Shown: positions 3,108 to 56,228 of the stretch, piece by piece
Numbering within the stretch: the first letter of the stretch is position 1
Layout of the letters: the number at the start of each line of letters is the position of its first letter
Assembly: GCA_016183065.1 (NCBI GenBank)
Contig: JACPFF010000004.1
Span: 1-64,000, forward strand
Source: Deltaproteobacteria bacterium
GTDB lineage: Bacteria; UBA10199; GCA-002796325; JACPFF01
Reading direction: 5' to 3'
DNA length: 64,000 nucleotides
The notes under the pieces: generated by a model
Databases searched by the model: none
Told to the model about the DNA's origin: nothing
What the model saw: only the letters and a program-made list of their open reading frames with translations
Position numbers and translations under genes: made by a program

Positions 3108-3983
3108 ATGTTACCACTGCATACAGAAGAGACGCAGACGTCCTGGCGGTCCCCATATGTCTGGGGGCTCGTGGTCGCGGTCATCGTCATCGGACTGGTC
3201 GTTGCCACCGAACCGCCCCACCGCGTGCCGTGGTTTCAGCGTGGCGTCTTGGCCGTCACAACCCCGATGGCCACTGTGGCCACGGCCACGCGGCGCTGGT
3301 TCCACCGCTGGTGGCAGGGCGATGCGTCCCGTCGCCTCGAAGCGCTGGAGCAACAACTCCGGATACAGGACGCCGCGCTCATTGCCGCAGAGCAGTGGCG
3401 CCGGGAGCGCGACGAATTGCGCGCCCTGCTGTCGCTCAGTGATGCCACATCAGCGCCCCGTTTGGGCGCGGAGGTCATTCACCGTGATTTGTCTGCACCG
3501 TATCAGACCGCAATGATCAACCGTGGCCGTGCGGACGGCGTGGAACCGGGCATGATTGCCGTGGCGGGTGGTGGTTTGGCAGGGCGTGTGGAACGTGTGG
3601 CACCGCATCATGCCGTGATTTTGCTCCTCAACGATCCGACGCACGCCGTCGATGTCCTGGTGCAGGGGACGCATCGCCGGGGCATCCTGATGGGCGCAGG
3701 TGATCGGGGAGATGGTCCTGCGCATGGAGCTGCCACGGTGATCTCCTATCTTGTGGGGGAGGGAGCGATCGCCATTGGGAGTGGCGTGGTCACCTCCGGT
3801 CTCGATGGGCGATATCCCGCCGGGATTCCCGTGGGGCGCGTGATGACGGTGATGACCACTGATGACGGTGTCGAGCGTTCAGCGGTCGTGGTGCCATTCG
3901 TCGAGATGCACCGACTCGACAGGGTCGGCTTACTCCCCCCGCTCGCCACGGCGGAACACCTCTTCCATGAAGGGGAACCGTGA
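3108..3983 (+). CDS. mreC: Rod shape-determining protein MreC
   Basis: This 291-residue protein has a short cytoplasmic tail, one membrane segment at about residues 17-37, a coiled-coil stretch at about 70-110 rich in Glu/Gln/Arg, and the periplasmic two-beta-barrel MreC domain. In the family MreC links MreB filaments and MreD to the PBP2/RodA wall synthase. The stop overlaps the start of mreD by 4 nt (GTGA), as expected for coupled subunits. Confidence 0.95.
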   Translation: MLPLHTEETQTSWRSPYVWGLVVAVIVIGLVVATEPPHRVPWFQRGVLAVTTPMATVATATRRWFHRWWQGDASRRLEALEQQLRIQDAALIAAEQWRRERDELRALLSLSDATSAPRLGAEVIHRDLSAPYQTAMINRGRADGVEPGMIAVAGGGLAGRVERVAPHHAVILLLNDPTHAVDVLVQGTHRRGILMGAGDRGDGPAHGAATVISYLVGEGAIAIGSGVVTSGLDGRYPAGIPVGRVMTVMTTDDGVERSAVVVPFVEMHRLDRVGLLPPLATAEHLFHEGEP

Positions 3984-4468
3984 TTGCCACTCTCCGTGTC
4001 ATCCTGGTTGCGGGCCTGCTCTGGTGGTTGGAACTCTTCATTCCACTGCCGATCATCCCGTGGTATCTGCTTCTCCTCCTGGTGACGCTGTCGCACCTCC
4101 CTCCAGGTGTCGCGCTCTCTCTCGCTGTGCTGTTGGGGGGGATTGCCGAGGCCATACACGTCCGTGAGCCTGGGTCGTTGATCAGTGTTTCTCTCGCGGT
4201 CGTGGTGCTGGCCCGATTGGTGCGGCAATACCTGATCGCCGATACCTGGAAGACGCGGTTGCCGCTTGTGATGGTCGTGACCTGTTTCGCCATCTGGCTC
4301 GAGACCTTTCTCTATCATCCCCCCAGTGCCACGATAGCGGGGTTGTTTGGGTCGGCGCATCGCGTGTTTCCCTGGGTCTGCACGCTCCTCGCGGCCATTG
4401 GTCTGGCAGATTCATTCGATGAGTGGGTCCGGCGGCCGCTCGTGCGACGTGCGCGAGGGCTCCTATGA
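3980..4468 (+). CDS. mreD: Rod shape-determining protein MreD
   Basis: This 162-residue, very hydrophobic protein has about five predicted membrane helices. It is recognised mainly by size, hydropathy and its position between mreC and the PBP2 gene. MreD is the poorly conserved inner-membrane partner of MreC in the elongasome. The start is GTG, overlapping the mreC stop. The TGA stop overlaps the ATG of mrdA. Confidence 0.88.
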   Translation: MIATLRVILVAGLLWWLELFIPLPIIPWYLLLLLVTLSHLPPGVALSLAVLLGGIAEAIHVREPGSLISVSLAVVVLARLVRQYLIADTWKTRLPLVMVVTCFAIWLETFLYHPPSATIAGLFGSAHRVFPWVCTLLAAIGLADSFDEWVRRPLVRRARGLL

Positions 4469-6318
4469 CCCTGGAGAGGCACTTTCAGGACGATTTGGCC
4501 CCGCGCGTCACGATCGTGGCCGTCGCGATCGGCTGTTTTTTTGCGCTCCTCGCCGTCCGGCTCTTTTATCTCCAGATTGTCCAGCGTGAGGTCTATGCGA
4601 GTTTTGCGGGATCCCGCGGCATTCGCACGGAGCGGATTCGGCCCGAACGCGGGATGGTGATCGATCGGTCAGGGCGCCACCTGATGTGGAACAATGCTTC
4701 GTTCGCCATCGTCGCTGTTCCCCAATATCTTGGCGATGCGGCCATGGTGAGTCATTCGGTGGCCTCGCTTCTGGAGATCGATACCGCACAGATTGCACAA
4801 CGATTGAAGCGCCACGCGCAGCAACCGAGATATCGCTCCATTCCACTGGTCTTCCCGGCCTCACACGATGCCATTGCCCGATTACTTGCCTGGCAAACGC
4901 CGTGGCATCGCGCAGATGCCGTCTACGACCTCCGTGGGGTGACCGTGGAAAAGACCTACACCCGCGAATACCGCGACGGCACGCTGGCCCCTCATCTGCT
5001 CGGATATGTGAAGGAGATCGATGCCGCCGAATTGGAACGGTCTGCCGCACAATATCCGGGTCAATATGTTCGCGGCGATGATATTGGTGCCACCGGGATT
5101 GAGGGCGCATGGGATCCCGTGCTCCGCGGAACTCCCGGATATCGCGAACGGCTGGTCGATGCCCGTGGTTATGAAATTACGTCGCCTCCCTGGTTTTCCC
5201 TCCACACCGAGCAGGCGATGCCGGGAGCGACACTGCAATTGGCGATCGACCTGCCACTGCAGGAGGCCGCCCATCGGGCCCTGGGCGAGCAACATGGCGC
5301 CGTGGTCGCCATCGAACCGAAGACGGGTGCCATCCTGGCCATGGTCAGTCATCCGGGGTTTGATCTCGCGCGTCTGCAACAGGAAGACCGGCAGGCCTAT
5401 TGGCGGACCTTGACGAGCGATGTGACGAAGCCGCTCTATCATCGGGCAGTCTTGGGAACCTATCCGCCGGGATCGATCTACAAAATGGTCGTCGCCATGG
5501 CAGCGCTCTCCGAGGGGGTGGTGACACCACAGGAGCGCGTTACCTGCCGGGGGGCGCTCCATTATGGGGGACGGTCCTTTCGCTGTTGGCGCCGCGGGGG
5601 ACATGGGGCGGTCGATCTCCGTCATGCCATTGCCGGGTCGTGCGATGTTTTTTTTTACACCATGGGCCTGCGGCTCGGCCCGGATCGACTTGCCAAGTAT
5701 GCTCGACGTTTTGGACTCGGTCTGCCAACCGGCATCGATCTGCCGCATGAATCGAGCGGCCTGATTCCAACCACGGCGTGGAAGGAACGCGTTCGGCATG
5801 AACCATGGCAGGGCGGGGAGACACTCTCCATCGCCATTGGCCAGGGATATGATACGATCACGCCGATCCAGGCCGCGGTCATGGTCTCGGCCATTGCCAA
5901 CGGCGGTCATCGTGTTGTCCCCTATATCGTCGAACGGGCCGTGACCGCCCGCGCCGTGTCACCGATCAACGGATGGCGCGTGGTGCGACAGCATCTCCCT
6001 CTCCTTCGTCCAGCGTATGTCCAGCAGATTCACGAAGGCCTCATCGATGTGGTCAATGCCCCGTACGGCACGGCGCGGCGTCTGGTCGCCCTCAAGCGCA
6101 AGATCGCGGGAAAGACGGGGACGGCGCAGGTCGTGAGTCTTTTGCGGGCGCAGGGGATTCGGAGCCATCATGATCATGCCTGGTTTGTCGCCTATGCCCC
6201 CTACGATGACCCGAAAATTGCCGTGGCCGTCCTTGTCGAACATGGCGGATCCGGGAGTCGCACGGCCTCGCCGATTGCCGGTGCCGTGATTGCGGCCTAT
6301 CTGGAGGGACAACCGTGA
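4465..6318 (+). CDS. mrdA: Penicillin-binding protein 2 (peptidoglycan DD-transpeptidase)
   Basis: This 617-residue class B PBP cross-links lateral wall peptidoglycan. It has an N-terminal membrane anchor at about residues 16-37, the dimerisation domain, and a transpeptidase domain with the three penicillin-binding motifs: SIYK (nucleophile Ser337, Lys340), SCD at about 392-394 (the SxD form usual in PBP2) and KTG at about 550-552. The ATG at 4465 overlaps the mreD stop; an in-frame upstream start inside mreD is less likely. The next gene, rodA, encodes its glycosyltransferase partner, and the stop overlaps it. Confidence 0.97.
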   Translation: MTLERHFQDDLAPRVTIVAVAIGCFFALLAVRLFYLQIVQREVYASFAGSRGIRTERIRPERGMVIDRSGRHLMWNNASFAIVAVPQYLGDAAMVSHSVASLLEIDTAQIAQRLKRHAQQPRYRSIPLVFPASHDAIARLLAWQTPWHRADAVYDLRGVTVEKTYTREYRDGTLAPHLLGYVKEIDAAELERSAAQYPGQYVRGDDIGATGIEGAWDPVLRGTPGYRERLVDARGYEITSPPWFSLHTEQAMPGATLQLAIDLPLQEAAHRALGEQHGAVVAIEPKTGAILAMVSHPGFDLARLQQEDRQAYWRTLTSDVTKPLYHRAVLGTYPPGSIYKMVVAMAALSEGVVTPQERVTCRGALHYGGRSFRCWRRGGHGAVDLRHAIAGSCDVFFYTMGLRLGPDRLAKYARRFGLGLPTGIDLPHESSGLIPTTAWKERVRHEPWQGGETLSIAIGQGYDTITPIQAAVMVSAIANGGHRVVPYIVERAVTARAVSPINGWRVVRQHLPLLRPAYVQQIHEGLIDVVNAPYGTARRLVALKRKIAGKTGTAQVVSLLRAQGIRSHHDHAWFVAYAPYDDPKIAVAVLVEHGGSGSRTASPIAGAVIAAYLEGQP

Positions 6319-7409
6319 ATGGTCTGCCGTTTGAAGAACGGATGTTGTTCGGGACGATGGTGCTCTTGGTGCTGATCGGTCTCAGCAATCTCTACAGTGC
6401 CCTCCATCTCTGGGGCGGCGGTGGCCATATGGCGCTCTTTTGGTTGCAGCTGGCATGGATTGCGGTTGGCAGCGGCATCGGTTGGTTACTCGGGCACTAT
6501 GACTATCGTCTCCTCCATCGCTCCTGCGGACGCTGGCATCTCATAGCCACGACGTTGCTGGTCCTCGTCTTGTTCGTGGGTCGCGATATCAGCGGCCATC
6601 GAAGCTGGTTTGCCATTGGGGGGTTCGGGATTCAGCCGTCGGAGTTTGTCAAGATCACCACGATTTTTGTCCTCGCGAGATTCTTTACTGATCACCTTCA
6701 ACCGCACGGTTTTGGTCTGCGCGATCTGTGGGAGCCCCTCGTTGCCGCAGGCGGTCCGGCCCTCCTGATTCTGCTGCAGGGGGATCTGGGGACGACCCTC
6801 TTTATGCTTTTGGTGACGGCCTCGATGATCCTCTTTGCCAAACTGCGGCGCGGGACCTTCATCCTTTTTCTGGTCGTTTTTCTCACGGGGGGTGGTTTTG
6901 CGTATCAGAAGGTCTTGACCCCGGCGCAACGCGGGCGCATTGTCACCTTTCTCAATCCCGAGGAGGATCCCCAGGGCCGCGGATATCATCTCCTCCAATC
7001 GAAAATCGCGGTCGGTTCCGGGGGGTGGTTGGGGCGTGGTTATTTAAAGGGACAAGTGAATAAACTTCGATATCTTCCTGAAAAACATACTGATTTTATA
7101 TTTCCAGTCCTGGCTGAAGAATGGGGATTTTTTGGAAGTCTTTTCACCATCGTCCTCTTTTTTACGCTCATCACCTTGGGGCTCACCGTGGCCAGACAGG
7201 CCCGGGATCGTTTTGGGGGCCTCCTCGCCATGGGAATGACCTTTTGGCTCTTCTGGCAGGTGGCGATCAATCTCGGCGGTGTGTTGGGACTCATGCCGCT
7301 CACGGGCGTGACCCTGCCGTTCTTAAGCTACGGCGGTTCCAGTATGGTCGTTGCCTTTGTCGCCATGGGATTGCTGATCAGTATCTCCCGGCGCCGGTTT
7401 CTCTTTTGA
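6315..7409 (+). CDS. rodA: Rod shape-determining protein RodA (SEDS peptidoglycan polymerase)
   Basis: This 364-residue polytopic membrane protein of the SEDS family polymerises lipid II into glycan strands together with PBP2. The family region W-E-GFxGS and the conserved end LPFLSYGGSS near residue 335 are present, along with a periplasmic segment HTDFIFPVLAEEWG. The GTG start overlaps the mrdA stop by 4 nt. It is the last gene of the elongasome operon and meets trxA convergently with only 15 nt between the stops. Confidence 0.96.
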   Translation: MNGLPFEERMLFGTMVLLVLIGLSNLYSALHLWGGGGHMALFWLQLAWIAVGSGIGWLLGHYDYRLLHRSCGRWHLIATTLLVLVLFVGRDISGHRSWFAIGGFGIQPSEFVKITTIFVLARFFTDHLQPHGFGLRDLWEPLVAAGGPALLILLQGDLGTTLFMLLVTASMILFAKLRRGTFILFLVVFLTGGGFAYQKVLTPAQRGRIVTFLNPEEDPQGRGYHLLQSKIAVGSGGWLGRGYLKGQVNKLRYLPEKHTDFIFPVLAEEWGFFGSLFTIVLFFTLITLGLTVARQARDRFGGLLAMGMTFWLFWQVAINLGGVLGLMPLTGVTLPFLSYGGSSMVVAFVAMGLLISISRRRFLF

Positions 7410-7424
7410 GCTGGCGAGAGAGGA

Positions 7425-7739
7425 TTACGCGAACATGGCGGCGATCTGCTGTTTGGGGACTGCTCCGACCTGTTGTTGGACGATCTGGCCGCCTTTAAAG
7501 AAGAGGAGGGCTGGAATGCCGCGGACGCCATAGCGTGCCGCGAGATTGGGATTGTCGTCGACATTGACCTTGGCAAACTTGACCTTCCCCGCATGTTCCT
7601 CTGCCAGGGCATCGATAACCGGCGCAATCTGTTTGCACGGCCCACACCACGGGGCCCAGAAATCGACTAACACAGGCGTTGCGGATTGGATCACTTCTTG
7701 ATCGAAATTTGATTCGCTTACTGTCACAATGTCACTCAC
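7425..7739 (-). CDS. trxA: Thioredoxin
   Basis: This 104-residue protein matches thioredoxin throughout: the active-site motif WCGPC near residues 31-35, the preceding VDFWAPWC strand, and the cis-Pro segment GIPALLFF near residue 75. It is a cytoplasmic disulfide reductase. It could also regenerate the ArsC-type arsenate reductase encoded at 14.2-14.6 kb. It is the last gene of the ruvA-ruvB-ftsB-like-trxA strand and overlaps the FtsB-like gene by 4 nt. Confidence 0.96.
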   Translation of the reverse strand: MSDIVTVSESNFDQEVIQSATPVLVDFWAPWCGPCKQIAPVIDALAEEHAGKVKFAKVNVDDNPNLAARYGVRGIPALLFFKGGQIVQQQVGAVPKQQIAAMFA

Positions 7740-8086
7740 GGGTGTTCCTCCTTTGGTTCGGCGTCAAATTGATAGACGGTCTCGCCGGGTCTGACATATC
7801 CCAATTCCTTCCGCAAGAGGATCTCGAGGTATCCCGGATCTTGCAGACGCCCTGTTTCCTCATGCAATGCCTCCAGCCGGTGCGTCAAGGCCTGTTCGGT
7901 CTGTAACATTGATTGTTTGGTGCCGCGCAGGCGGCGGAGGGTCAGGAGACCCTGATCGCCGAAGATGATGTACCATCCAAAGAGGGCCATGAGCGCGAGC
8001 GCGGCCAACGGGATAGGGTTGATCCATTCGCGCCACGATCGGAGCAGGCCCCAGGGGCATATGTATCGTCGCCACTGCATGCGCAC
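7736..8086 (-). CDS. FtsB/DivIC-like septum formation initiator
   Basis: This 116-residue bitopic protein has one membrane helix at about residues 25-45 followed by a coiled coil (LRGTKQ to HEETGRL) and a C-terminal segment ILLRKELGYVRPGETVY, which matches the conserved end of FtsB/DivIC proteins. In the family these proteins form a complex with FtsL and FtsQ at the division site. The GTG start abuts the ruvB stop (TAGTG). Confidence 0.85.
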   Translation of the reverse strand: MRMQWRRYICPWGLLRSWREWINPIPLAALALMALFGWYIIFGDQGLLTLRRLRGTKQSMLQTEQALTHRLEALHEETGRLQDPGYLEILLRKELGYVRPGETVYQFDAEPKEEHP

Positions 8087-9105
8087 TATAACAATGACTC
8101 TTGGTTCATCTGCAGGGGAACGGGATGACCAAAATGTTCATAGGTTTTCGACGTGACCACGCGTCCGCGGGAGGTCCGCGCCAGATATCCGGCTTGAATC
8201 AGAAACGGTTCATACACCTCTTCCACGGTGTCGCGTTCTTCACTTACGGCCGTGGCAATGGTATCGACGCCGACCGGACCGCCGTGAAATTTTTCGAGAA
8301 TCGTCAGCAAAATTTTCCGATCCATGTCGTCGAAACCGGCCTGATCGACGGCCAAAAGATCGAGGGCACGGAGGGCGGTCTCCTCCCCGATGGTCCCATC
8401 GGCGCGCACCTGGGCAAAATCGCGGATACGGCGGAGGAGGCGGTTCGCAATGCGTGGAGTGCCGCGCGAGCGCCGCGAGACTTCCAGTGCCGCGGGTTCG
8501 CTGATCTGTACCTGCAGGATCGATGCTGCGCGCCGCACAATATCGGCGAGTTCTGTGGCCTGGTAAAATTCGAGGCGACCGACAATCCCGAACCGGTCAC
8601 GCAGCGGCGCACTCAACAAACCGGCCCGTGTTGTCGCGCCGATCAACGTGAATGGCGGAAGATCAATCCGCACGGTTTTGGCCGCCGGACCCTGGCCGAT
8701 CACGAGATCGAGGCGGAAATCTTCCATGGCCGGATAGAGGATTTCTTCGACAATCCGCGGGAGGCGGTGGATTTCGTCAATGAACAAGATCTGGCGCGGC
8801 TCCAGATTCGTGAGAATCGCCGCCAAATCGCCCGCCCGCTCCAGCGTCGGGCCGGAGGTGATTTGCATCGGCACCTGCAGGCTGGCGGCAATGATATGCG
8901 CGAGCGTGGTCTTCCCGAGTCCGGGCGGACCGCAGAAGAGGGCATGATCGAGCGCCTCGCCGCGACTGCACGCCGCCTCGATAAAGATCTGGAGGCTCTC
9001 CTTGAGTGGGGTCTGTCCGGTAAATTCGTCGAAGTGTCGCGGACGTAATGACCCATCAAACTGTTGATCATCACTCTCGAGTTGCATGAGGTCGTGCGAT
9101 GTCAT
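8086..9105 (-). CDS. ruvB: Holliday junction branch migration ATPase RuvB
   Basis: This 339-residue AAA+ motor has Walker [12 protein letters not shown] near residue 60, Walker B FIDEIHRL near 110, sensor 1 IGATTRAG near 155, an arginine finger region LRDRFG, and the C-terminal winged helix ending near [13 protein letters not shown]. It drives branch migration with RuvA, whose gene overlaps it by 4 nt upstream. No ruvC is adjacent in this window. Confidence 0.98.
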
Positions 9106-9701
9106 GGCTGTGCCAATACCTTCAATGCCTCGCGAATCACGATCCCGAGGGTCTGTGCTTCTTCCACGGGGATCTGTCGCAAGGCCTCCATGGCCGTCTG
9201 TTGTGGATAGCCAAGATTGACCAAGGCCGACAAGGCATCCTGATGGATCGCACCCTTCATGGTCCCGCCCGCGGGGAATTGCAAGAGCTTTGCATGATCT
9301 TTCAGCAATCGATCCCGCAGGTCGATAATAATCCGTTCCGCGGTTTTTTTGCCAATGCCGGGAATGGCAGAAAGTTGCGCCGCATCTTCGACCGCCACGG
9401 CCTGGACAAGATCGGCCGGGGCAAGGCCCGAGAGAATGGCGAGGGCAGTGCGTGGTCCGATGCCCGAGACGCTCAAGAGTCGTCGAAAGAGGGCCCGTTC
9501 CTCCCCGGTCGAAAATCCGTAGAGCGTGAGCTGATCTTCCCGCACATGTGTATGGATGTGGAGCGTAACCGTCGTCCCCAAGTGCGGGAGTTGACTCGCC
9601 GTGCGCTGGGAGATCAGAACTTCATATCCGATACCATGGACATCAAGGATGAGGTTCTCCGGGGTGATCGCGGCGATCGTGCCGCGCAAGAGCGCAATCA
9701 T
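9102..9701 (-). CDS. ruvA: Holliday junction DNA helicase subunit RuvA
   Basis: This 199-residue protein starts with [12 protein letters not shown], the usual RuvA N-terminus, so I place the start at 9701 rather than at upstream in-frame codons. The OB-fold is followed by tandem helix-hairpin-helix motifs ([16 protein letters not shown] and [16 protein letters not shown]) and the C-terminal domain III that contacts RuvB. It binds the four-way junction as a tetramer. It is the first gene of its operon and diverges from the pilin gene. Confidence 0.96.
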
Positions 9702-9770
9702 GGGCAACATTGTACGAGGGGGGCGGGAGGAGGGCAATAGCAATCGCGCGGGCGATGCGTTTCTTCGGAC

Positions 9771-9800
9771 TTGAAAGGGGGGCGGTGAAAAGTGTATACT
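9771..9800 (+). promoter_or_regulatory. Sigma70-type promoter for the pilin gene
   Basis: TTGAAA at 9771-9776 and TATACT at 9795-9800 are separated by 18 nt, close to the sigma70 consensus. Transcription would start near 9807, just upstream of the pilin ATG at 9824. This argues against any translation start before about 9807. Confidence 0.65.
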
Positions 9801-9823
9801 ATTCGATGAGTTGCGAGGTCCCG

Positions 9824-10243
9824 ATGCGGCAGCGGCTGCAAAGATTGCACAGACAAGGGTTTACCATGGTCGAGGTCATTTTGACGATCGTGGTCTTGGG
9901 CATCCTGGCCACAGTCGCCCTCCCCAATTTTGTCGCCGTGAGCGATGAGGCGCAAGAGGCCGCGCGCGATAACGTCGTGGCAGTGGTCCAGACGTCGATC
10001 GATCTCTGGAGAGTGGAGGATATTGTCTCCAATGGACCGCCGGGGAACTACCCCGCGGGGCTCGACGCCCAGCCAGACAATACCGTGTGTGGGCCGGCCA
10101 CTCCCTGCTTTGGGACCGTCCTCATGTCGCCCGTGACCGATGGTCGCTGGAGCAAACAGTCGGCGACGCAATATCGCTATACCGGTGGCAACGGATCGGT
10201 CGATTTTACCTACAGCGCAGTCAATGGGACGTTCGGCCCGTAG
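9824..10243 (+). CDS. Type IV pilin-like protein with class III signal peptide
   Basis: This 139-residue protein begins with a short basic leader and a prepilin peptidase site, RQG|FTMVEVILTIVVLGILA, with Glu at mature position 5 and the hydrophobic N-terminal helix of pilins and pseudopilins. The C-terminal part has two Cys residues (VCGPATPCF) that could form a disulfide, and a Gly/Thr-rich beta end. It could be a major pilin, minor pilin or type II secretion pseudopilin; no assembly genes are nearby to decide. I chose 9824 from the promoter and a GAGG ribosome site. The stop lies at the 5' edge of structured repeat copy B. Confidence 0.88.
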   Translation: MRQRLQRLHRQGFTMVEVILTIVVLGILATVALPNFVAVSDEAQEAARDNVVAVVQTSIDLWRVEDIVSNGPPGNYPAGLDAQPDNTVCGPATPCFGTVLMSPVTDGRWSKQSATQYRYTGGNGSVDFTYSAVNGTFGP

Positions 10244-10244
10244 T

Positions 10245-10490
10245 GGGTCCCACGGCCCAGCCGCACTGCGGTGCTCAAGGGGGTGTGGCGACGACCGAGT
10301 CCGGGGACCCAGCGCGGCTGGGTGGACGAGGAAGCCCCCAGCGCGCCCCGCGCGCGAGAGGGGGGGACCCAACGGGCTTTGCCCGTTGGGGGGTCAGTGG
10401 CGACGACCGAGTCCGGGGACCCAGCGCAGCTGGATGGACGAGGAAGTACCCGAAGGCGGAGCCGCAGGGTACGTGAGCCCCTCCAATAGT
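10245..10490 (+). repeat. Structured GC-rich repeat, copy B (internally duplicated)
   Basis: This element follows the pilin stop. It has the GCCGC-ACT-GCGGT hairpin, then two successive copies of the module GGCGACGACCGAGTCCGGGGAC + ACCCAGC/GCTGG hairpin + GGAYGAGGAAG, separated by a GC run and a perfect 10-bp hairpin CCCAACGGGC-TTT-GCCCGTTGGG that is shared with copy D. It ends with the GTACCC/GGGTAC hairpin, ACGTGAGCCCCT and CCAATAGT. It lacks the first two hairpins of copy C. Confidence 0.75.
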
Positions 10491-10559
10491 CGCGTGAAAT
10501 TTTCTCTGACTTGCCTTTCGTGGAGAGTCCGTCTACAGCCGTGCACAAAAGGAGATCGC

Positions 10560-10997
10560 ATGCATCCATTACCGCATCGTTATCATGTGGCGCTGACCTA
10601 TCGCGGCGACAAGACCGGGGCACTGACGACCGACGGACAGCCGACCATCGGGTTCTCTGCGCCCAAGGAGTTTGACGGACCAGGGAGTGGGTGGAGTCCG
10701 GAGACCCTGTTGCTCAATGCCGTGGCCGCCTGTGTCACACTGACATTTGGGGCCATCGCCGCCATGATGCAGGTCGAATATCGGGACCTGACAATCGAAG
10801 CGACCGGTACGGTGGATAAAATAGAGGGTGGCAAGCAGATGCACTTTTCAGAGATCACCCTGCGACCGACACTGCGGCTCGCAAACCCCGCGGACGAGAG
10901 CAAGCTGCCGAAGATGTGGGAAAGCACCGAGAAGCACTGCCTCGTCTCGAACTCGCTCAAGACACCGGTTCATATTGCAGCACCGACCTTGCGATAA
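10560..10997 (+). CDS. OsmC/Ohr family protein
   Basis: This 145-residue protein is of the OsmC/OhrA fold, thiol peroxidases acting on organic hydroperoxides. The two redox Cys are visible: AACVTLTF near residue 60 and KHCLVSNSL near residue 125. The SPETLLLNAVAACV segment is the usual lead-in to the first Cys. The ATG at 10560 has AAGGAG eight bases upstream. Upstream in-frame codons run back through repeat copy B and are not used. Whether it is OsmC-like or a DUF-type relative such as YhfA is open. Confidence 0.9.
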   Translation: MHPLPHRYHVALTYRGDKTGALTTDGQPTIGFSAPKEFDGPGSGWSPETLLLNAVAACVTLTFGAIAAMMQVEYRDLTIEATGTVDKIEGGKQMHFSEITLRPTLRLANPADESKLPKMWESTEKHCLVSNSLKTPVHIAAPTLR

Positions 10998-44130: not shown

Positions 44131-44207
44131 GTGGCTGTAGCTCAGCCGGTTAGAGCGCCAGGTTGTGGCCCTGGAGGCCGTGGGTTCGAATCCCATCAGC
44201 CACCCCA
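44131..44207 (+). tRNA. tRNA-His(GTG)
   Basis: Acceptor GTGGCTG/CAGCCAC, discriminator C with the extra G(-1) available at 44130, anticodon stem CCAGG/CCTGG with loop TTGTGGC (anticodon GTG), T arm GTGGGTTCGAATCCCAT, and encoded CCA. Its 3' end overlaps the last codons of the serine recombinase on the other strand, marking the left end of the island. Confidence 0.97.
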
Positions 44208-45710
44208 ATGACAAGAAGAGGCCATTTCGGCGACGAGTCGGAATGGCCTTTTCAATTCATATCGCACACTTAGACCGTCCAAGATCGGGTTCGAAAGTAT
44301 CGTAGTCAGCAACCCCCTCCTTTCTTCGTGGGTCGCCCTCAAATACAAGTCTGGAGCCTTCTGCGCGAGTTCGAAAATCTTTTTGGCGGTTACGAGAACC
44401 GCGCCTGTCACTTCTTGTTGGGCCTCGCCAAGGATGGCGGTCAAGTTGTGGCGTTCCTTCCGCACTCGCTCAATCTGACGCTTATAGGCCACTTCATCAA
44501 GAACGCCTTTCCGAAAATCGTCGTAAACAAGGTCCTCGGCACTTTCCATTTCCTTGAGTCGGGCCTGCATGGCTTCAATGTTGCGGTCATGAGCACGTCG
44601 AGCCTTTTCCTCGGTTTCATTGAGGACATGCATCACCTCATCGGCACGCTTTTCGGTGATATGGATTGAATCCAATGCCGGTTTGAACTCTTGAAAGATA
44701 TGCCCTTCGGAGACGTAACGGAGCTTGGCGTGTTGTTTCTTGCCGTTGCTACAGCGATAGTAATCGTAATGCCGCCCCGAAGGTTTGTCCTTTGGGTCAT
44801 ACGTAACCGAGCATCCACACGCGCATTTCATAAAGCCGGAAAGGCTCCCATTCTTATGTCTGGCCCGAAACCCCGGCCTAAAATGCGCCCAAAACGTCTC
44901 CTGAACAGTCTTCCACAGAGACTTGGATACTAACGGGGTATGCTTGCCTTGGTGGCGTTCGCCACTCCAATCAAATTCTCCCATGTAGAAGGGGTTTTTC
45001 AGAATCTTTTCGACTGTGCTCTTGTGAAACGTTGGTCGCTTATCAACGGGAACAAGCCCCTCTTCCAAAACGGCCCCGCGCACCCGATCAAAACTGAACC
45101 CTTGAGATCGGAGATCGTACATCCGGGGGATGAGAGCCTCTCCCCAAGTAAGCGGCTTAATGATCCCCCGGCGACGGTTTTTATCTTCGCGGAGTTCCGG
45201 GTGGGCGTTGATATAACCGAAGGGAGCCTTGCCGGGGAACCAGCCGTCTCGTGCCTTGCCCAACAATCCCTTTTTGGTTTCACGACCGATATTTCGGGAG
45301 GTAAATGCGTTGACCGAAGTCATCATGTCATCAACCAAGAAATCGCTTGGTGGACTATCCTTCGTGATTGTTTTTCTCTCTTTGTAGAGGTGGATTTCGA
45401 TTTTTCCTTCTTCGATAAAAAGTTGAAGCTGGGCCTTGTTGGTGTGATTACGGTAGAGTCGGTCATGCTTTTCGGCAACGACGGCAAGGGCCTTTTGCTT
45501 CCCGCTCGTATGGGCCGCGATAAAGGCCACAATCTCGTCGAATTTCTTACGCTGATGCACCTTAGAGGCTGTCTCTTGAAACGTGAAGGCCCGGAGGACC
45601 CGAAACCCTTGGTCGTCGGCGTATTGCTTCCCTAAGCGCTCCTGCTCGTCGAGGGAATAGCCTTCTTTCTGGTGGGCATCACTAACTCGGTTGATGATGA
45701 TCGCTTCCAT
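44196..45710 (-). CDS. Large serine recombinase (site-specific integrase)
   Basis: This 504-residue protein has an N-terminal resolvase catalytic domain with nucleophile Ser10 in INRVSDAHQKEGYS and arginines near 70-85 (KHDRLYRNH). A recombinase domain lies at about 165-270 (PFGYINA, ILKNPFYMGEF), with a zinc ribbon at about 305-340 (KCACGCSVTY ... YYRC) and a coiled coil at about 370-440. Such enzymes integrate and excise mobile elements. It ends inside the tRNA-His 3' end, which implies attachment there. Base composition is more AT-rich than the core genes. Confidence 0.93.
   Translation of the reverse strand: MEAIIINRVSDAHQKEGYSLDEQERLGKQYADDQGFRVLRAFTFQETASKVHQRKKFDEIVAFIAAHTSGKQKALAVVAEKHDRLYRNHTNKAQLQLFIEEGKIEIHLYKERKTITKDSPPSDFLVDDMMTSVNAFTSRNIGRETKKGLLGKARDGWFPGKAPFGYINAHPELREDKNRRRGIIKPLTWGEALIPRMYDLRSQGFSFDRVRGAVLEEGLVPVDKRPTFHKSTVEKILKNPFYMGEFDWSGERHQGKHTPLVSKSLWKTVQETFWAHFRPGFRARHKNGSLSGFMKCACGCSVTYDPKDKPSGRHYDYYRCSNGKKQHAKLRYVSEGHIFQEFKPALDSIHITEKRADEVMHVLNETEEKARRAHDRNIEAMQARLKEMESAEDLVYDDFRKGVLDEVAYKRQIERVRKERHNLTAILGEAQQEVTGAVLVTAKKIFELAQKAPDLYLRATHEERRGLLTTILSNPILDGLSVRYELKRPFRLVAEMASSCHWGG
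44219..44254 (+). terminator. Hairpin with T run after tRNA-His
   Basis: GGCCATT pairs with AATGGCC and a T run follows. It is placed to end tRNA-His transcription. On the other strand the same bases encode the C-terminal residues of the recombinase (RPFRLVAEMASSC). Confidence 0.7.
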
Positions 45711-47954: not shown

Positions 47955-48479
47955 CTACGGACATGAAAGTTTCGGCCATAAGCCACGTTTTTGAGCACGA
48001 GCCTCGGACTCCACGCTGATGAAGCGTTCCTTGTAGATAAAATCAAATTTCCGATAAGCGCACCCGAATCCTTCCCGGATGATGGTTTCATTTAAGAGGG
48101 AACCATCCGAAAAGCGGAGGTAGGCCAACGTCCGGCCATATTTGTCTTTCCGCTCGTGGTCATACTCCACCTTGACAGCTTGGTGGAGAGCCTTTTGCTT
48201 GGTGAAAGCGGATGCTCGGCTCCCCAAGAAAAGGATAGTCTTGAGTTTCACCATCCCCTTTTTCGAGTCATGGATGGCCTTGCCGTTCGGTCTGCTCTCC
48301 GGGGTATCAACTCCGATGAGACGCACCTTTCTTCCGTCACTCAGGGTCACGGTATCGCCGTCGATGACTTTCTTGACCGTCAATGTATGGGCAGCACAGG
48401 AGGAAAGGAAGGTGGCGAGGATAGCAATGGAAAGTAGGTGCCTCGCCAAATCACTTTTTTTCGTAATTGTTGATCGCAT
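47955..48479 (-). CDS. Thermonuclease (SNase) family lipoprotein/secreted nuclease
   Basis: This 174-residue protein has a signal peptide with lipobox-like LSSC near residue 28 and the staphylococcal nuclease fold: VIDGDTVTL, VRLIGVDTPESRPNG near residue 53 (catalytic Arg and Asp), and KYGRTLAYLRFSDGSLLNETIIREGFG near 113-140 (second Arg). It degrades DNA or RNA outside the cytoplasm with Ca2+. It overlaps the TerB-like gene by 29 nt. Confidence 0.88.
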   Translation of the reverse strand: MRSTITKKSDLARHLLSIAILATFLSSCAAHTLTVKKVIDGDTVTLSDGRKVRLIGVDTPESRPNGKAIHDSKKGMVKLKTILFLGSRASAFTKQKALHQAVKVEYDHERKDKYGRTLAYLRFSDGSLLNETIIREGFGCAYRKFDFIYKERFISVESEARAQKRGLWPKLSCP

Positions 48480-49872: not shown

Positions 49873-50103
49873 GTGAAGCAAAATTACAAGGAATCATACG
49901 AAATCTTTTTAAGGCGTTTTTGTGGGAATTTGAGAAAGGCCCTTTCAGAATCGGGACTGACCCAACGGAAGCAACTTTTGGCCGGATTGGACCCTCGTTA
50001 TATCGCACGCATCAAAAAGGGCGAAGGCAACCCAACCCTCATGACGATTTGGAGGATTTGTAAGACAACGGGAATTGATCCAGAGAGTTTGTTTAAGAAG
50101 TAA
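49873..50103 (+). CDS. Xre-family helix-turn-helix regulator
   Basis: This 76-residue protein has the Cro/CI fold: FLRRFCGNLRKALSESGLTQRKQLLAGLDPRYIARIKKGEGNPTLMTIWRICKTTGIDPESLF. The helix-turn-helix lies at about residues 27-48. It starts with GTG. It lies 26 nt upstream of the ATPase gene on the same strand and may regulate the ATPase-DUF4145 pair. Confidence 0.85.
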   Translation: MKQNYKESYEIFLRRFCGNLRKALSESGLTQRKQLLAGLDPRYIARIKKGEGNPTLMTIWRICKTTGIDPESLFKK

Positions 50104-50129: not shown

Positions 50130-51806
50130 ATGATAAATGAAATCCAATTGAAATTCGTATCAGACGCTAGTGAAAGGAATCTCAAATTTTCTCCGGATCA
50201 TGTAACAATTTTTCTTGGCCCCAATAACGGCGGGAAAAGCCTGCTACTTCGAGAGGTCGAAAAATGGTGTGCAAACGGACCTCTTTCTGATGGCAAAATT
50301 CTCTCTGATTTGAAGATCGCCTTTCCAAGCCCGGATCAAATTATCGAAGAGGTCAAAAAGTTTTCTTTACCACCGGAGCCCGGAGAAACCATTGAAAGCA
50401 CCCGAATCAAGTATGGCAAGCTCGATGCGGCGACAAATCAGCGCACAACCCATTCAGCTACCATTGAGCACCTGAAACAATGGGCGAAGGGTTCAGACCA
50501 AAGAGGGTTTACCCAATATGTTGTTCTCTACATATTAAGACTCGATGCTCTCACGAGGCTCCATTTGGTCGGTCAACAAGAAACAAATGACCTTCAGAGA
50601 CCATCAAACAACATATTGAACGAGTTGTTTCGTGATGACGAAAAAAGAGGGCATTTACGTAGGATCGTGAAGGAGGCTTTCGGAAGAATCTTTGTTATTG
50701 ATCCCACCGCAATCAAACAGTTGAGAATCCGACTTGCCGATAGAGAACCTCAACCATCGGAAGAAAAATCACTGGGGAAACCAGCCATAGATTTCTATGC
50801 TGCCCAACCTCTCATCGAAGAATTTAGCGATGGGGTAAGAGCCTTTACTGGCCTGTTGATGGCAATCATAGCGAGTTCGGCAAAAATCCTTCTTCTGGAT
50901 GAGCCCGAAGCGTTTTTGCATCCTTCCTTGGTTTCAAGGCTGGGTACTGAAATCTCGAATATAATGAGCAATCGTGAAGGGAATTTGTTTGTTGCCACCC
51001 ACAGCCAAAAATTTCTCATGGGCTGTATTGAGTCCGGCAAAAACGTCAACATCATCAGGCTGACTTACGATGAAAACAAAAGGTCCACTGCGCGGATGCT
51101 TTCAAACGAAAAAGTTCGAGTCCTCATGCAGAATCCGCTTTTGAGGTCCGTGGGAGTTTTGGAGGCACTTTTCTACAACTATGTCATCGTTACCGAGGCG
51201 GATGCAGACAGGGCCTTTTATCAGGAAATTAACCAACGCCTAATGGCCTTTAAGAAAGAATGGGGGATTCAAGATTGTTTGTTTCTCAACGTGCACGGGA
51301 AGCAGGAAATGTGGGATGTCGTGAAACCGTTACGTGAACTTGGGATACCTGTTGCGGCCATTGCCGACATAGACCTGATTAAGAATGGCGGTGCGGAGTG
51401 GAAAAAAGTTCTCGAAGCAAGTTTTATCCCCGATGCAAGTCATACAGCGTTTCAAGATCATCGAAAGTCCATATTGGATAAGTTTGAAGCCACCGGAAAG
51501 AATATGAAGAGGGAAGGCGGCGTTCAACTCTTGGCAAATGGAGATCGTCAGGCGGCTCTTGATCTTTTTGGTCAACTTCAGGACTACGGGATTTTCATTG
51601 TTCCCGGCGGAGAAATCGAAGGTTGGCTCTCAGGGCTTGAGGTTTCGAGAGATAAAGGGACATGGTTAAGAACGATTTTTGAAAAACTTGGAAGTGATCC
51701 GGGCGATTCGAGGTACGTAAAACCAACCGACGGTGATGTATGGGAATTTCTAAGCAAGGTTAAGAAATGGCTTACTGATTCTGGCAGGAAAGGTGTTCCA
51801 AGTTAA
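50130..51806 (+). CDS. OLD-like AAA ATPase with C-terminal TOPRIM-like domain
   Basis: The N-terminal half of this 558-residue protein is an ABC-type ATPase: Walker A FLGPNNGGKS near residue 30, a signature-like segment EFSDGVRAFTGLLMAI near 230, Walker B ILLLDEPEAFLHPS near 255, and H-loop VATHSQKFL near 288. The C-terminal half has VIVTEADADRAFYQEI near 355 and AAIADIDL near 410, matching the acidic motifs of TOPRIM nucleases. This is the architecture of OLD family and Gabija-type defence proteins. With the following DUF4145 gene it forms a candidate anti-phage module. Confidence 0.85.
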   Translation: MINEIQLKFVSDASERNLKFSPDHVTIFLGPNNGGKSLLLREVEKWCANGPLSDGKILSDLKIAFPSPDQIIEEVKKFSLPPEPGETIESTRIKYGKLDAATNQRTTHSATIEHLKQWAKGSDQRGFTQYVVLYILRLDALTRLHLVGQQETNDLQRPSNNILNELFRDDEKRGHLRRIVKEAFGRIFVIDPTAIKQLRIRLADREPQPSEEKSLGKPAIDFYAAQPLIEEFSDGVRAFTGLLMAIIASSAKILLLDEPEAFLHPSLVSRLGTEISNIMSNREGNLFVATHSQKFLMGCIESGKNVNIIRLTYDENKRSTARMLSNEKVRVLMQNPLLRSVGVLEALFYNYVIVTEADADRAFYQEINQRLMAFKKEWGIQDCLFLNVHGKQEMWDVVKPLRELGIPVAAIADIDLIKNGGAEWKKVLEASFIPDASHTAFQDHRKSILDKFEATGKNMKREGGVQLLANGDRQAALDLFGQLQDYGIFIVPGGEIEGWLSGLEVSRDKGTWLRTIFEKLGSDPGDSRYVKPTDGDVWEFLSKVKKWLTDSGRKGVPS

Positions 51807-51850
51807 TCTCTGAATACAGAAAAGGTGATTTTTTATAGAAAGGGATTGCG

Positions 51851-52525
51851 ATGCGAAGTTGGTGGTCACTTGGTGAAGGTTCTGGTCAGCCGGGCAGTGA
51901 ACTCGCCCTCTATCAAATTGAATGTCCGTTCTGTACTGAAAAGGGGAATTTCAAACTTGCCTTCCATGCAGAAAAAAAGAAACCGAATGGATCAAAAAAG
52001 CTGAATTTTGATACCTACGAGTGCGGTAGCTGTGCGGGATACGTACAGGTTTTATGGTCAGGAAGTGGTTTTTCGGGTTCTCATGGACTACACAGTTACC
52101 GCGTACAACCATTCCCAATAGGCAAACCGGAGCCATCAGAGAAGTGGCCGGAGACCATAAGCCGTTTTTGGGTTCAAGCGCACGAAAATGAAACCAATGA
52201 GAATTGGGATGCCGCCGCTGTCATGGCTCGTTCTGCCTTGCAAGCGGCACTGCGGAATCAAGAAGCCGAGGGGAAAAATCTCAAAGAGGAAATTGATGAC
52301 TTGCTCCATAAGGGGATACTTCCAAAGGTGATGAAGGAATGGGCCGACGAATTAAGATTGCTTGGTAATGAGTCAGCTCATCCCCGTGACATCTCAAATC
52401 CACCGGCTGAAAAAGATGTTCACGCTGTAATCAATTTCTTGGATTACTTGCTTCTGTATCTTTTCGATCTTCCAACACAAATTCAAGAGTATCGTAAAAG
52501 GAAGGCAGCAAAGGAGAAGGAATAG
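51851..52525 (+). CDS. Zinc-ribbon and DUF4145-domain protein
   Basis: This 224-residue protein has an N-terminal CxxC pair (IECPFCTEKG near residue 23 and YECGSCAGY near 56) forming a zinc ribbon. A C-terminal helical domain (about 115-215) matches DUF4145: WDAAAVMARSALQAALR, LKEEIDDLLHKGILPK and RLLGNESAHPRD. DUF4145 is often found in restriction enzymes and other defence proteins. It follows the ATPase gene by 45 nt on the same strand and is likely co-transcribed. Confidence 0.75.
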   Translation: MRSWWSLGEGSGQPGSELALYQIECPFCTEKGNFKLAFHAEKKKPNGSKKLNFDTYECGSCAGYVQVLWSGSGFSGSHGLHSYRVQPFPIGKPEPSEKWPETISRFWVQAHENETNENWDAAAVMARSALQAALRNQEAEGKNLKEEIDDLLHKGILPKVMKEWADELRLLGNESAHPRDISNPPAEKDVHAVINFLDYLLLYLFDLPTQIQEYRKRKAAKEKE

Positions 52526-52592: not shown

Positions 52593-53435
52593 TCAGCTCT
52601 TCCCAATCTGCTTCCTCTGCGGTTTTTCGGGGAGATAGTTTTCCCTTGAAACTACCCGTCGGCTGGTCTCGATTTCCAACTTCTTTCGGGCATCCCCGGC
52701 GATCTTTCCGCCGCGCTGGGCGGCATCCTTGTTTTCGTCAAAACCTTGGGCGTCTTTGTTGCGGGCGATCTCGGTCGTCGAGGCTTCTCCCAACATAGAG
52801 AAAATCAACTCAAGATCGTTCATGTGGTCGCGTAGATTTTCGCGCTTGAGTCCCTTGTACTCTTGGTACTCGCTTGGAGTCATTCCGAAGGTCGCCTTGC
52901 TGATCTCCGCAGTCAGGATCGAAAACTCCCTGTCTTCTTTGACCCCTCGTTTCTGCCACTCGTCGGTTAATTCCTCCCGGATCGCAATCCCCCGCATCCG
53001 TTTTTCAATCCATTCTTCGGGGTATCCCTTCGCCTTGTACAAGGCGCGGGTCCGTTTGGTGGCAAGCTCCGGGTTCTCGATCTCCTGCACCCGTTCGTAG
53101 CCAACCTTGGCCAGCCACCGTTTGAACGGCTCCGCCTTGGGAGAGGGGATAGACTGAATTACTCGGAAGAGGGTTTCGGCATTGGCCGCATCGGTTTCCC
53201 TCATCTTGCCGTCGGGGGCCTCCATTTTCAACTGTACGATTTTCTCGTACAGTTCAGAAAATCCTTCTTCTTCCGCTAAGTTACGCTTGAGGTCTGACCA
53301 GTACCGGCGCGGGTTTTCGCTGTCGGTTAAGGCGGCCACCACGTCAATGACCGAGAAGTGCCAGTCATTGTTGTGGAGGACCCGCCGGATGTTCTTTCCC
53401 TTGAAGACGACGAGTTTGTTTTCGGAGGCAGTCAT
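52593..53435 (-). CDS. Bro-N / DinD-like protein
   Basis: In this 280-residue protein, residues 6-105 are a Bro-N domain (VVFKGKNIRRVLHNNDWHFSVIDVVAAL). Residues 165-280 match the DinD-type C-terminal region (ISKATFGMTPSEYQEYKGLKRENLRDHM, MLGEASTTEIARNKDAQGFDENK, GGKIAGDARKKLE). DinD is a DNA damage-inducible protein reported to inhibit RecA filaments, and Bro-N proteins are common in phages. A second, frameshifted copy lies immediately downstream on the map, with about 950 bp duplicated. Confidence 0.85.
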   Translation of the reverse strand: MTASENKLVVFKGKNIRRVLHNNDWHFSVIDVVAALTDSENPRRYWSDLKRNLAEEEGFSELYEKIVQLKMEAPDGKMRETDAANAETLFRVIQSIPSPKAEPFKRWLAKVGYERVQEIENPELATKRTRALYKAKGYPEEWIEKRMRGIAIREELTDEWQKRGVKEDREFSILTAEISKATFGMTPSEYQEYKGLKRENLRDHMNDLELIFSMLGEASTTEIARNKDAQGFDENKDAAQRGGKIAGDARKKLEIETSRRVVSRENYLPEKPQRKQIGKS

Positions 53436-53685: not shown

Positions 53686-54539
53686 TTAGAACTTCTTCCC
53701 AATCTGCTTCCTCTGCGGTTTTTCGGGAAGGTAATTTTCTTTTGTAACGACGCGACGACCGCTCTCAATCTCCAACTTTCTCCGCGCATCACCGGCGATC
53801 TTTCCGTCCCTGTGAGCGGCATCCTTGTTTTCGTCAAAACCCTGGGTGTCTTTATTGCGGGCGATCTCGGTCGTCGATGCCTCCCCCAACATGGAGAAGA
53901 TTAACTTCAGATCGTTCATGTGGTCACGCAGGTTTTCGCGTTTGAGTCCCTTGTGTTCTGGTACTCACTTGGGGTCATCCCAAAGGTCGCCTTGCTGATC
54001 TCTGCCGTGAGGATCGAAAACTCCCGGTCTTCCTTAATCCCTCGTTTCTGCCACTCGTCGGTCAACTCTTCCCGGATGGCGATGCCGCGCATCCGTTTCT
54101 CGATCCAATCGTCGGGGTATCTCTTCGCCTTGTAGAGGGCGCGGGTTCGTTTGGTCGCCAGTTCCGGGTCTTCGATTTCCTGCACCCGTTCGTAGCCGAC
54201 CTTGGCCAGCCAGCGTTTGAACGGTTCCGCCTTGGGGGAGGGGATCGACTGGATGATGCGGAAAACCCCCTCAGTGTTGGCACAATTGAGTTTTTGCGGC
54301 CCCCCTGTGGTCTCCACCGAAAGGGGGGTGACAATTTGTCCCCACCCTTTGGCTAACTCCTCGTCCCGACTACGTATTTTCTTGATATAGTCCGAAGCGT
54401 TTGGGGTATCGGTAAGGGCTTCCACGACATCGGCCACAACGAACCACCATTCATTTTGGTGAAGGGTGCGCCGGATATTCTTTCCCTTGAAGACGACGAG
54501 TTTGTTTTCAGGTGTGGTCATTCGAAGACTCATAACCAC
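53686..54539 (-). pseudogene. Frameshifted Bro-N / DinD-like paralogue
   Basis: This copy aligns with the 52593-53435 gene along nearly its whole length. The frame is intact from the ATG at 54539 (RBS and VVFKGKNIRRTLHQNEWWFVVADVVEAL) to SKATFGMTPSEYQ, then shifts near 53.95 kb. There one base is missing relative to the intact copy (CTTGTACTCTTGG versus CTTGTGTTCTGG). The DinD-like end continues in another frame from 53919 to 53686. The Bro-N part is more diverged between copies than the C-terminal part. Confidence 0.85.
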
Positions 54540-54651: not shown

Positions 54652-55020
54652 CTAATTTCCCTTCTTGATTTTTTTCGAAACAAGCTTCAGCACACTGGGA
54701 GCCATCTCATGAATGGGCACTGGAATGTCGAGACATAAACGACGCATTTGCCCTGACAGATAAGCCAGATCGAGCGGTTGTTCCGCCAAAAAAATAGACT
54801 GAAGATCGTCCAAATCATTAAAACGGGTTTTGTCATTCGCAAACAAAAATAGCTTTGAGAGAATGAGATCCTCAACCGTCAAACAGGGTAGTTTTCCAAA
54901 TCCAAAGTCGACATTATTTTGTTCAGCGCGACTTAAGCCGCAGGCAAACCACGGCATGTCCGGCAGAATGAAGTCGAGACCAATGGCCGATTTATTCTTT
55001 TCTTCCCTGCCAACAATCAT
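54652..55020 (-). pseudogene. 3' part of nucleotidyltransferase, cut off by an in-frame TGA
   Basis: This 122-codon frame directly continues, in the same reading frame, the open frame that ends at the TGA at 55021-55023. It encodes LDFILPDMPWF, LPCLTVEDLILSKLFLFANDKTRFNDLDDLQSIF, the usual C-terminal part of AbiEii-like or DUF6036-like nucleotidyltransferases. An ATG follows the TGA immediately, so re-initiation is possible, but this half has no catalytic residues of its own. Confidence 0.7.
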
Positions 55021-55683
55021 TCATGGGGGTCTGTTTTTTCTCTTAATGGCAAATAGGGGTCCACCTTCCAGATCGGCTTTTCGAATCACATGTGACTTAA
55101 GCCCAAGAGAACGTATGATTTGCGTCGCCTTTTCTAGAGATTTGGATTCTGAGAAAATGAGAAAATCAAGATCTTTGGTGAGGCGTTCCTCCCTGCGATA
55201 GAGGGAGGCGACCAGACCGCCAGCCAATGCGTAGCGAACCTTTTCTCTCTGCAAAATCTTTACGACTTTGATGAAGAATTTTTTAAAGTCCATGCCTTGG
55301 CTCCTTTGATAACAGCTTGTGCCGAATGAAAAAAAGTGGAGAGTGCTCTTCGCCCTCCGGTGATAATCGTTCGACATAGAGGCAATCTGAGTTTTCATTT
55401 CCAATTCGAACAATTGAGCAAGAAAGGGAGCATGCGTGTTCTGCCAGTTTGGAAAAAATAGAACATAGGAACCCTTTATCTTCCTGATCAGTAATTTCTC
55501 ATGGACCAACTGCTGGAGCACTCTTTGCGCCGAATAAAGCGGCACCCCGGATAGATAAGCAATGTGCCTGAGACAGAGCGGAACTGTCTGATGATGCAAG
55601 GTTCTTAAAACCCTGAAACGAGCCCTTGATGAAAAAATGGTAGAGAAATCGAGCACGATAAAAGTGTACAAATTATTGTACAT
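55021..55683 (-). CDS. Winged-helix segment fused in frame to nucleotidyltransferase N-terminal part
   Basis: The frame runs from ATG 55683 through a winged-helix-like region (RARFRVLRTLHHQTVPLCLRHIAYLSGVPLYSAQRVLQQLVHEKLL). It continues into a nucleotidyltransferase start at ATG 55293, which has its own AAGGAG site: VRYALAGGLVASLYRREERLTKDLDFLIF carries the G-G and D-L-D metal motifs. The frame stops at a TGA before the rest of the fold. The natural layout was probably two genes (regulator and transferase, as in AbiE-like or MNT-type toxin-antitoxin loci), now decayed. Confidence 0.6.
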   Translation of the reverse strand: MYNNLYTFIVLDFSTIFSSRARFRVLRTLHHQTVPLCLRHIAYLSGVPLYSAQRVLQQLVHEKLLIRKIKGSYVLFFPNWQNTHAPFLAQLFELEMKTQIASMSNDYHRRAKSTLHFFSFGTSCYQRSQGMDFKKFFIKVVKILQREKVRYALAGGLVASLYRREERLTKDLDFLIFSESKSLEKATQIIRSLGLKSHVIRKADLEGGPLFAIKRKNRPP

Positions 55684-56228
55684 AATATCAACAGCTAATT
55701 GTGGATTCCGTAGATGGCAGGATGAGAAATCGTCAGCTCGATGCCACGAAAAGTGCACGGAATCGTCGCCATGACCATTGTGGTGACCGTCGGAGCTCCG
55801 ATGATGGGACTGCCGAAGATGGATATCCCCGGCATGCTCGCAAGGGTGATTGTGTTGGGATGGATGGCCCACTTCATGGTCGGAACGGTGCTCGCTTTCG
55901 ACCATACGTCTGTGCAGGGGCGACGATGGGAGGCTGCGTTGGCGAAATGTGGGCTCGGGAAAAACGGCCGAGGATCTCCTTCGCCGCCAGCAGTTCCACG
56001 GCCTGCGATGCCACGATCAATTTTTGTTTCTCTTTGGATACGCCTTGACACCGCCTGGTGGAGCGCATAGTGAACACGCCCATGCATTGCCAGCCTTTCC
56101 CATGTACCGACGTGTTTTGTTTTTTTTGTTTTTACGGCGCGTAAGCGCCTATCACACTGCTATCCCCAACATGATGTGTACCCTTTGAACCCCGGCGCTG
56201 GATGGTGGTGGAGGAGTGAGTAGAGACG
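55684..56228 (+). pseudogene. Right junction of island with DUF6789-like membrane protein remnant
   Basis: Composition returns to GC-rich here. A frame from ATG 55741 encodes GIVAMTIVVTVGAPMMGLPKMDIPGMLARVIVLGWMAHFMVGTVLAF, which resembles the conserved core of DUF6789 membrane proteins, but it departs from the family at about residue 55 (55.9 kb). The stretch 55.9-56.2 kb holds no recognisable gene. This looks like a core gene damaged near the island boundary. Confidence 0.5.

Follow-up and report, generated by a model that had tools for sequence, protein, structure and literature searches.

An OLD-family ATPase-nuclease gene, followed at close range by a gene for a zinc-ribbon/DUF4145 protein, raises the question of whether the two genes form a defence system of their own or merely lie side by side. 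The two genes are found in a stretch of 64,000 nucleotides of a Deltaproteobacteria bacterium contig (JACPFF010000004.1), which is referred to here as the window. An earlier note on this DNA had read them as a candidate two-gene defence module, for which it knew of no described counterpart.

Gene order and island context

Genes encoding an Xre/Cro-type regulator, the OLD protein and the DUF4145 protein follow each other in this order, separated by 26 bp and 44 bp, respectively (Table 1). Their positions, strand and domain content agree with the earlier note, which had recognized an OLD-type ATPase-TOPRIM protein and a zinc ribbon joined to DUF4145, with an Xre regulator ahead of both; Pfam matches and a CxxC...CxxC pattern led to the same assignments. 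A consensus scan found no promoter-like or terminator-like match in the 44-bp OLD/DUF4145 gap, so co-transcription of the OLD and DUF4145 genes is possible, and the two may be carried by one transcript under the Xre regulator. A phmmer search of the OLD loci described below, made with the window's Xre protein at E<=1e-3, revealed no other copy of the regulator as a conserved partner; short divergent HTH proteins could escape such a search.

The genes are located on an island of low GC content, about 12 kb in length (approximately 44 to 56 kb), in which GC values range from 0.45 to 0.53 per kb, compared with 0.53 to 0.64 in the flanks. The island is located beside a tRNA-His gene, the end of which is overlapped by a serine recombinase gene. 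No second copy of the tRNA-His 3' end, a direct repeat indicative of the far att site, was found in the window. The island therefore has no defined boundary on that side.

Table 1. Features of the window and of three loci from other sequences.
Feature	Sequence	Position	Strand	Evidence and remarks
tRNA-His	window	44131-44207		ARAGORN; overlapped by the end of the recombinase gene
Island serine recombinase	window	44196-45710	-	Pfam Resolvase, Recombinase and Zn_ribbon_recom
Staphylococcal-nuclease-like (SNase) protein	window	47955-48479	-	E 5.9e-19; on the island
Xre/Cro-type HTH regulator, 76 aa	window	49873-50103	+	Pfam HTH_3, E 9.5e-8; PADLOC control-protein model, E 3.2e-6
OLD-family ABC-ATPase-TOPRIM protein, 558 aa	window	50130-51806	+	Pfam AAA_21, E 6.6e-14; Pfam OLD-like_TOPRIM, E 4.2e-7; PADLOC Old, E 2.5e-24
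OLD/DUF4145 intergenic gap, 44 bp	window	51807-51850	+	sequence; consensus scan
Zinc-ribbon and DUF4145 (predicted HEPN-fold) protein, 224 aa, PD-T7-4-like	window	51851-52525	+	Pfam DUF4145, E 6.3e-18; PADLOC PD-T7-4, E 9.8e-15 (judged by E value, not by PADLOC's reporting threshold)
BRO-N gene, intact	window	52593-53435	-	PADLOC candidate model PDC-S13, E 3.3e-121
BRO-N gene, second copy, split into two ORFs	window	53686-54539	-	BRO-N repeats 77-86% identical
Possible AbiEii-like nucleotidyltransferase, across two abutting ORFs	window	54652-55905	-	weak Pfam match, E 0.0033
Gene row with OLD relative and DUF4145 gene	L184 (viral)	3438-10690
Zinc-ribbon DUF4145 gene and AAA_15 ATPase gene	L283 (viral)	183-2982
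OLD homologue, in two overlapping ORFs	L003 (Paracoccus versutus plasmid)	5947-7625

The zinc-ribbon/DUF4145 protein

The DUF4145 protein was aligned with 33 viral sequences. The zinc ribbon consists of C25, C28, C58 and C61; C25 and C61 are present in all 34 aligned members, C28 and C58 in 33. The PADLOC PD-T7-4 model matches residues 22-213 of the window protein (positions 13-190 of the 211 in the model) and, over the whole alignment, matches 28 of the 34 proteins, with an E value of 2e-84 at best. The phrog_1305 family matches residues 22-222 (E 4.7e-31). A search of PDB sequences returned one DUF4145 entry, 9y9c. Zinc-ribbon DUF4145 genes of the PD-T7-4 type are common as lone genes in viral contigs. 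At viral loci of this type (L219-L377), the most recurrent neighbour families are located on the opposite strand, and several of them read as phage structural proteins.

DUF4145 has been placed in the HEPN superfamily (PMC3710099). A structural model built from the 34 sequences had a pLDDT of 83.1. For residues 96-210 of this model, the best VIA match was the HEPN structure 2hsb (Z 14.4, rmsd 2.7, 113 residues). Judging from their titles, the matches down to Z 7.9 are mostly HEPN or HEPN-clan structures, and the first hemerythrin match occurs at Z 7.8. Foldseek concurs with HEPN at weak E values (0.017 at best). In the model, the C-terminal domain of the DUF4145 protein is a HEPN four-helix fold.

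HEPN domains carrying an Rx4-6H motif are predicted or shown to be RNases, and the motif has been described where a helix ends and a loop begins. In the DUF4145 proteins, R127, R169, G172, N173 and H177 are kept in all 34 members, and R169-x7-H177 extends from the end of helix 159-176, the fourth in the model, into the loop. RNase activity is plausible on the grounds of this HEPN-like position and conservation, yet the spacer is seven residues long, instead of the four to six found in Rx4-6H. The departure from the spacing of active HEPN domains, along with the label "DNA binding protein" attached to phrog_1305, would fit a protein that acts as a regulator or binds DNA and is no RNase. We consider this rather unlikely, as R169, G172, N173 and H177 are invariant and are found where the HEPN RNase motif is expected, at the end of the fourth helix before the loop, and as the protein matches a defence model. 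We prefer to regard it as a PD-T7-4-like candidate RNase, in which R169, N173 and H177 would make up the active site; nucleic acid or a phage cue is the probable ligand of the zinc ribbon.

The OLD protein and its clade

The OLD protein was analysed in an alignment of 57 sequences, comprising the window protein and proteins from 56 of 80 loci that carry OLD relatives; the other loci, mostly featuring broken, truncated or similar ORFs, were dropped by hand. Old, the best PADLOC model for the window protein, matches all 57 sequences, as several weaker ATPase models do. No NCBIfam model matches the window protein at its cut-off. In searches of PDB sequences, a profile query retrieved 6p74, the structure of the Thermus scotoductus OLD protein (TsOLD), and a query with the single OLD protein gave no OLD match.

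The AlphaFold2 model of the protein had a pLDDT of 91.2. The top Foldseek matches include the OLD protein of retron Eco8 (E 2.4e-12), TsOLD (E 3.9e-11) and GajA. VIA aligned the model with 6p74 over 333 residues spanning positions 1-550 (Z 14.2, rmsd 5.5), and the two-domain fold is present in it. The structures ranked above 6p74, which are heads of SMC, cohesin, condensin, Rad50 and PtuA proteins, match the ATPase half only.

Residues K36 (Walker A), D257 and E258 (Walker B) and H291 (H-loop) are found in all 57 sequences. The same holds true for D360, D413, D415, E495 and E497 of the TOPRIM metal site, while E356 is found in 56. When the window protein was aligned by profile to P2 Old (Prob 96.5, E 1e-9), its residues E356, D360, D413, D415, E495 and E497 fell on E398, E402, D453, D455, D541 and E543, respectively, residues of P2 Old whose mutation reportedly abolishes or impairs killing (PMC7049728). 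By sequence, the window protein has the full catalytic set of the OLD family and is a predicted nuclease.

In a tree of 44 rows, which include 15 of the 56 aligned loci and 23 of loci L139-L169, the OLD protein falls in a clade of 19 rows (support 100/100), along with family members and with Lactococcus and Streptomyces homologues. P2 Old, GajA and YbjD fall outside this clade. The midpoint root serves for drawing only, and several long branches make the deeper joins unsure. Class 2 OLD proteins are reported to be nested within Class 1, and eleven uncharacterised OLD clades are described in the same paper, which deals with Cran1 (PMC12796447). The clade of the window protein is widespread, and none of the model libraries searched includes one dedicated to it.

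A pattern scan of 84,980 species, each represented by one genome, identified 431 relatives of the OLD protein. The 80 that were examined are 38-50% identical and mostly full length. OLD relatives were also identified in 47 viral contigs; viral relatives surfaced when alignments (OLD, DUF4145) were used as queries, and none surfaced with single-protein queries. Among 46 genomes of the phylum, matches at E<=1e-10 were restricted to the window's own protein and one other, which is partial and 26% identical.

These data bear on the possibility that the OLD gene encodes a domesticated or housekeeping ATPase-nuclease with no role in phage defence. A cell-cycle role is reported for the archaeal Cran1, along with several OLD clades that await characterisation (PMC12796447), and our literature search gave no defence assay for the present clade. 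Patchy presence in the phylum and carriage by the island, plasmids and viral contigs point instead to cargo spread by horizontal transfer rather than to a core gene, and we regard a housekeeping role as improbable.

The OLD gene behaves as a stand-alone gene in variable neighbourhoods, and no neighbour recurs across the 80 loci. The largest cluster of neighbours is represented in 5 of the 80, and its longest member resembles a generic ABC-transporter ATPase. Among the families listed, the commonest Pfam family beside OLD genes is an endolysin-type peptidase, found in 3 of 118 adjacent ORFs; these are mechanical ORFs of 78-900 aa, not gene calls. We read the three matches as coming from L013, L067 and L068, loci that share neighbours at positions -1 and +2 (endolysin-like and tyrosine-integrase-like) and that we read as a prophage setting, comparable to that of P2 old. 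The homologue on the P. versutus plasmid is split into two overlapping ORFs, and is therefore probably broken.

Pairing of the two genes and comparison with known systems

The pairing of OLD and DUF4145 genes is not conserved among the loci examined. A DUF4145 gene was looked for within 4 kb of the OLD relative, or up to the contig end, with phmmer and an iterated DUF4145 profile, and was found in none of the 80 genomic loci, which had at least 1 kb of downstream flank in 68 cases (less than 1 kb in 12) and at least 1 kb upstream in 77. No DUF4145 gene is annotated next to the OLD homologues carried by plasmids of Paracoccus, Lactococcus, Streptomyces (three) and Arthrobacter. Of the 80 OLD genomes, 50 were screened for PF13643. 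Eight contain any DUF4145 and, in all eight, it is located on a contig that differs in length from the OLD contig. Among viral OLD loci, one of 47 (L184) features a DUF4145 gene. In the reverse direction, the OLD family scored above 25 bits in 0 of 197 overlapping DUF4145 locus records (10 + 21 + 7 + 159). After removal of identical DUF sequences, 131 distinct loci were left. A search of these for OLD/SMC-type Walker A motifs up to three genes away, which can miss divergent ATPases, picked out a single locus, L283, and the neighbour there belongs to another family. Excerpts of papers naming DUF4145, gathered in a limited literature search, make no mention of its pairing with OLD.

In L184, a umuC-like gene (read from the sequence), the OLD relative, the DUF4145 gene and a NACHT gene are arranged in a row that is probably a cargo hotspot, with the DUF4145 gene on the same strand as the OLD relative and 931 bp downstream of it. 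In L283, a zinc-ribbon DUF4145 gene is found about 35 bp before the gene for a 626-aa AAA_15 ATPase, whose match to the OLD profile is weak, at E 0.00056 and prob 29.7.

These counts weigh against a true two-component system, in which the OLD protein would sense phage nucleic acid or process it, with the zinc-ribbon/HEPN protein as its effector or sensor. Such a system would be in keeping with two genes on the same strand, 44 bp apart and with no terminator-like site between them, with the membership of both in nuclease-type defence families and with the further co-locations in L184 and L283. Since DUF4145 accompanies none of the 80 genomic OLD relatives and one of the 47 viral ones, and this OLD family is missing from the 197 DUF4145 records, we consider it very improbable. 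Also very improbable is a rare, recently assembled cooperation, in which OLD would introduce a lesion into DNA or tRNA that the zinc-ribbon/HEPN protein would sense or complete, with the window, L184 and L283 as separate ATPase and DUF4145 instances.

In our view, each of the two genes is likely to be a phage-exclusion gene in its own right that functions independently of its neighbour, both being stacked on the recombinase-borne island. We infer this because both genes behave as stand-alone cargo: their pairing is not conserved, and each is found repeatedly where the other is missing, viral contigs included. The defence role put forward in the earlier note is still plausible. The two-gene module is not supported, as the pairing is unconserved in the loci examined and each gene matches a model (Old, PD-T7-4) for a single-gene kind that PADLOC already includes. 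The candidate two-gene system is accordingly struck off, and on this evidence the adjacency of the two genes on the island reflects stacking and not partnership. The tandem order, the 44-bp gap and the absence of a terminator-like site leave room for a functional operon.

Nuclease activity, trigger and anti-phage effect are predicted, for each gene, from what is known of its family. The ABC ATPase head of the OLD protein probably senses an infection cue and then licenses cleavage of nucleic acid at the two-metal TOPRIM site; cutting would in turn arrest or kill the infected cell. In OLD proteins, an ABC ATPase is linked to a TOPRIM nuclease that employs two metals (PMC7049728). P2 Old is reported to respond to RecBC inhibition and to cleave a tRNA (PMC13261556; tRNA cleavage, Govande et al.), and to act both as a DNA exonuclease and as a nuclease on ssRNA (PMC12409363). 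For YbjD, another Class 1 OLD protein, the TOPRIM domain is reported not to be needed for the anti-phage effect (PMC13261556), and the nuclease step is thus not safe to assume for the window protein. If tested, the OLD gene would provide a functional view of a widespread stand-alone clade, and the DUF4145 gene would reveal if the R-x7-H spacing goes together with RNase activity in a zinc-ribbon HEPN protein.

Among known systems, Gabija, which includes a Class 2 OLD protein, shares the OLD-type ATPase-TOPRIM chain. It was rejected, as there is no UvrD/PcrA/Rep-like helicase next door; the OLD gene is followed by the DUF4145 gene and then by BRO-N on the other strand. Scores of the GajA models listed are 31-41 bits for the window protein, and GajA forms a distinct clade. 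Retron Eco8 (Class 3 OLD) was likewise rejected, its NCBIfam model scoring 26.1 bits against a curated cut-off of 250.

The Class 1 proteins P2 Old and TsOLD share with the window protein the ABC ATPase and TOPRIM domains in one chain, the stand-alone gene and carriage by mobile elements. In P2 Old, all six metal-site positions tested by mutation align with the window protein. In contrast, the window protein belongs to a separate clade from P2 Old, and identity is limited to 23% over 240 columns with P2 Old and 18% over 333 residues with TsOLD. PD-T7-4, represented in PADLOC by model PDLC04109, is a defence encoded by one gene (Vassallo et al. 2022) and shares with the second window protein the zinc ribbon, DUF4145, a similar length and a match over most of the chain. 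The window protein is a divergent member, with an E value of 9.8e-15 versus 2e-84 for the best viral member. The closest parallel in arrangement is provided by old and tin of P2, two neighbouring genes that the record places on a single "old-tin mRNA" and describes as blocking different phages. The likeness is one of arrangement, as two adjacent exclusion genes would be present in both cases, with co-transcription annotated in P2 and possible in the window.
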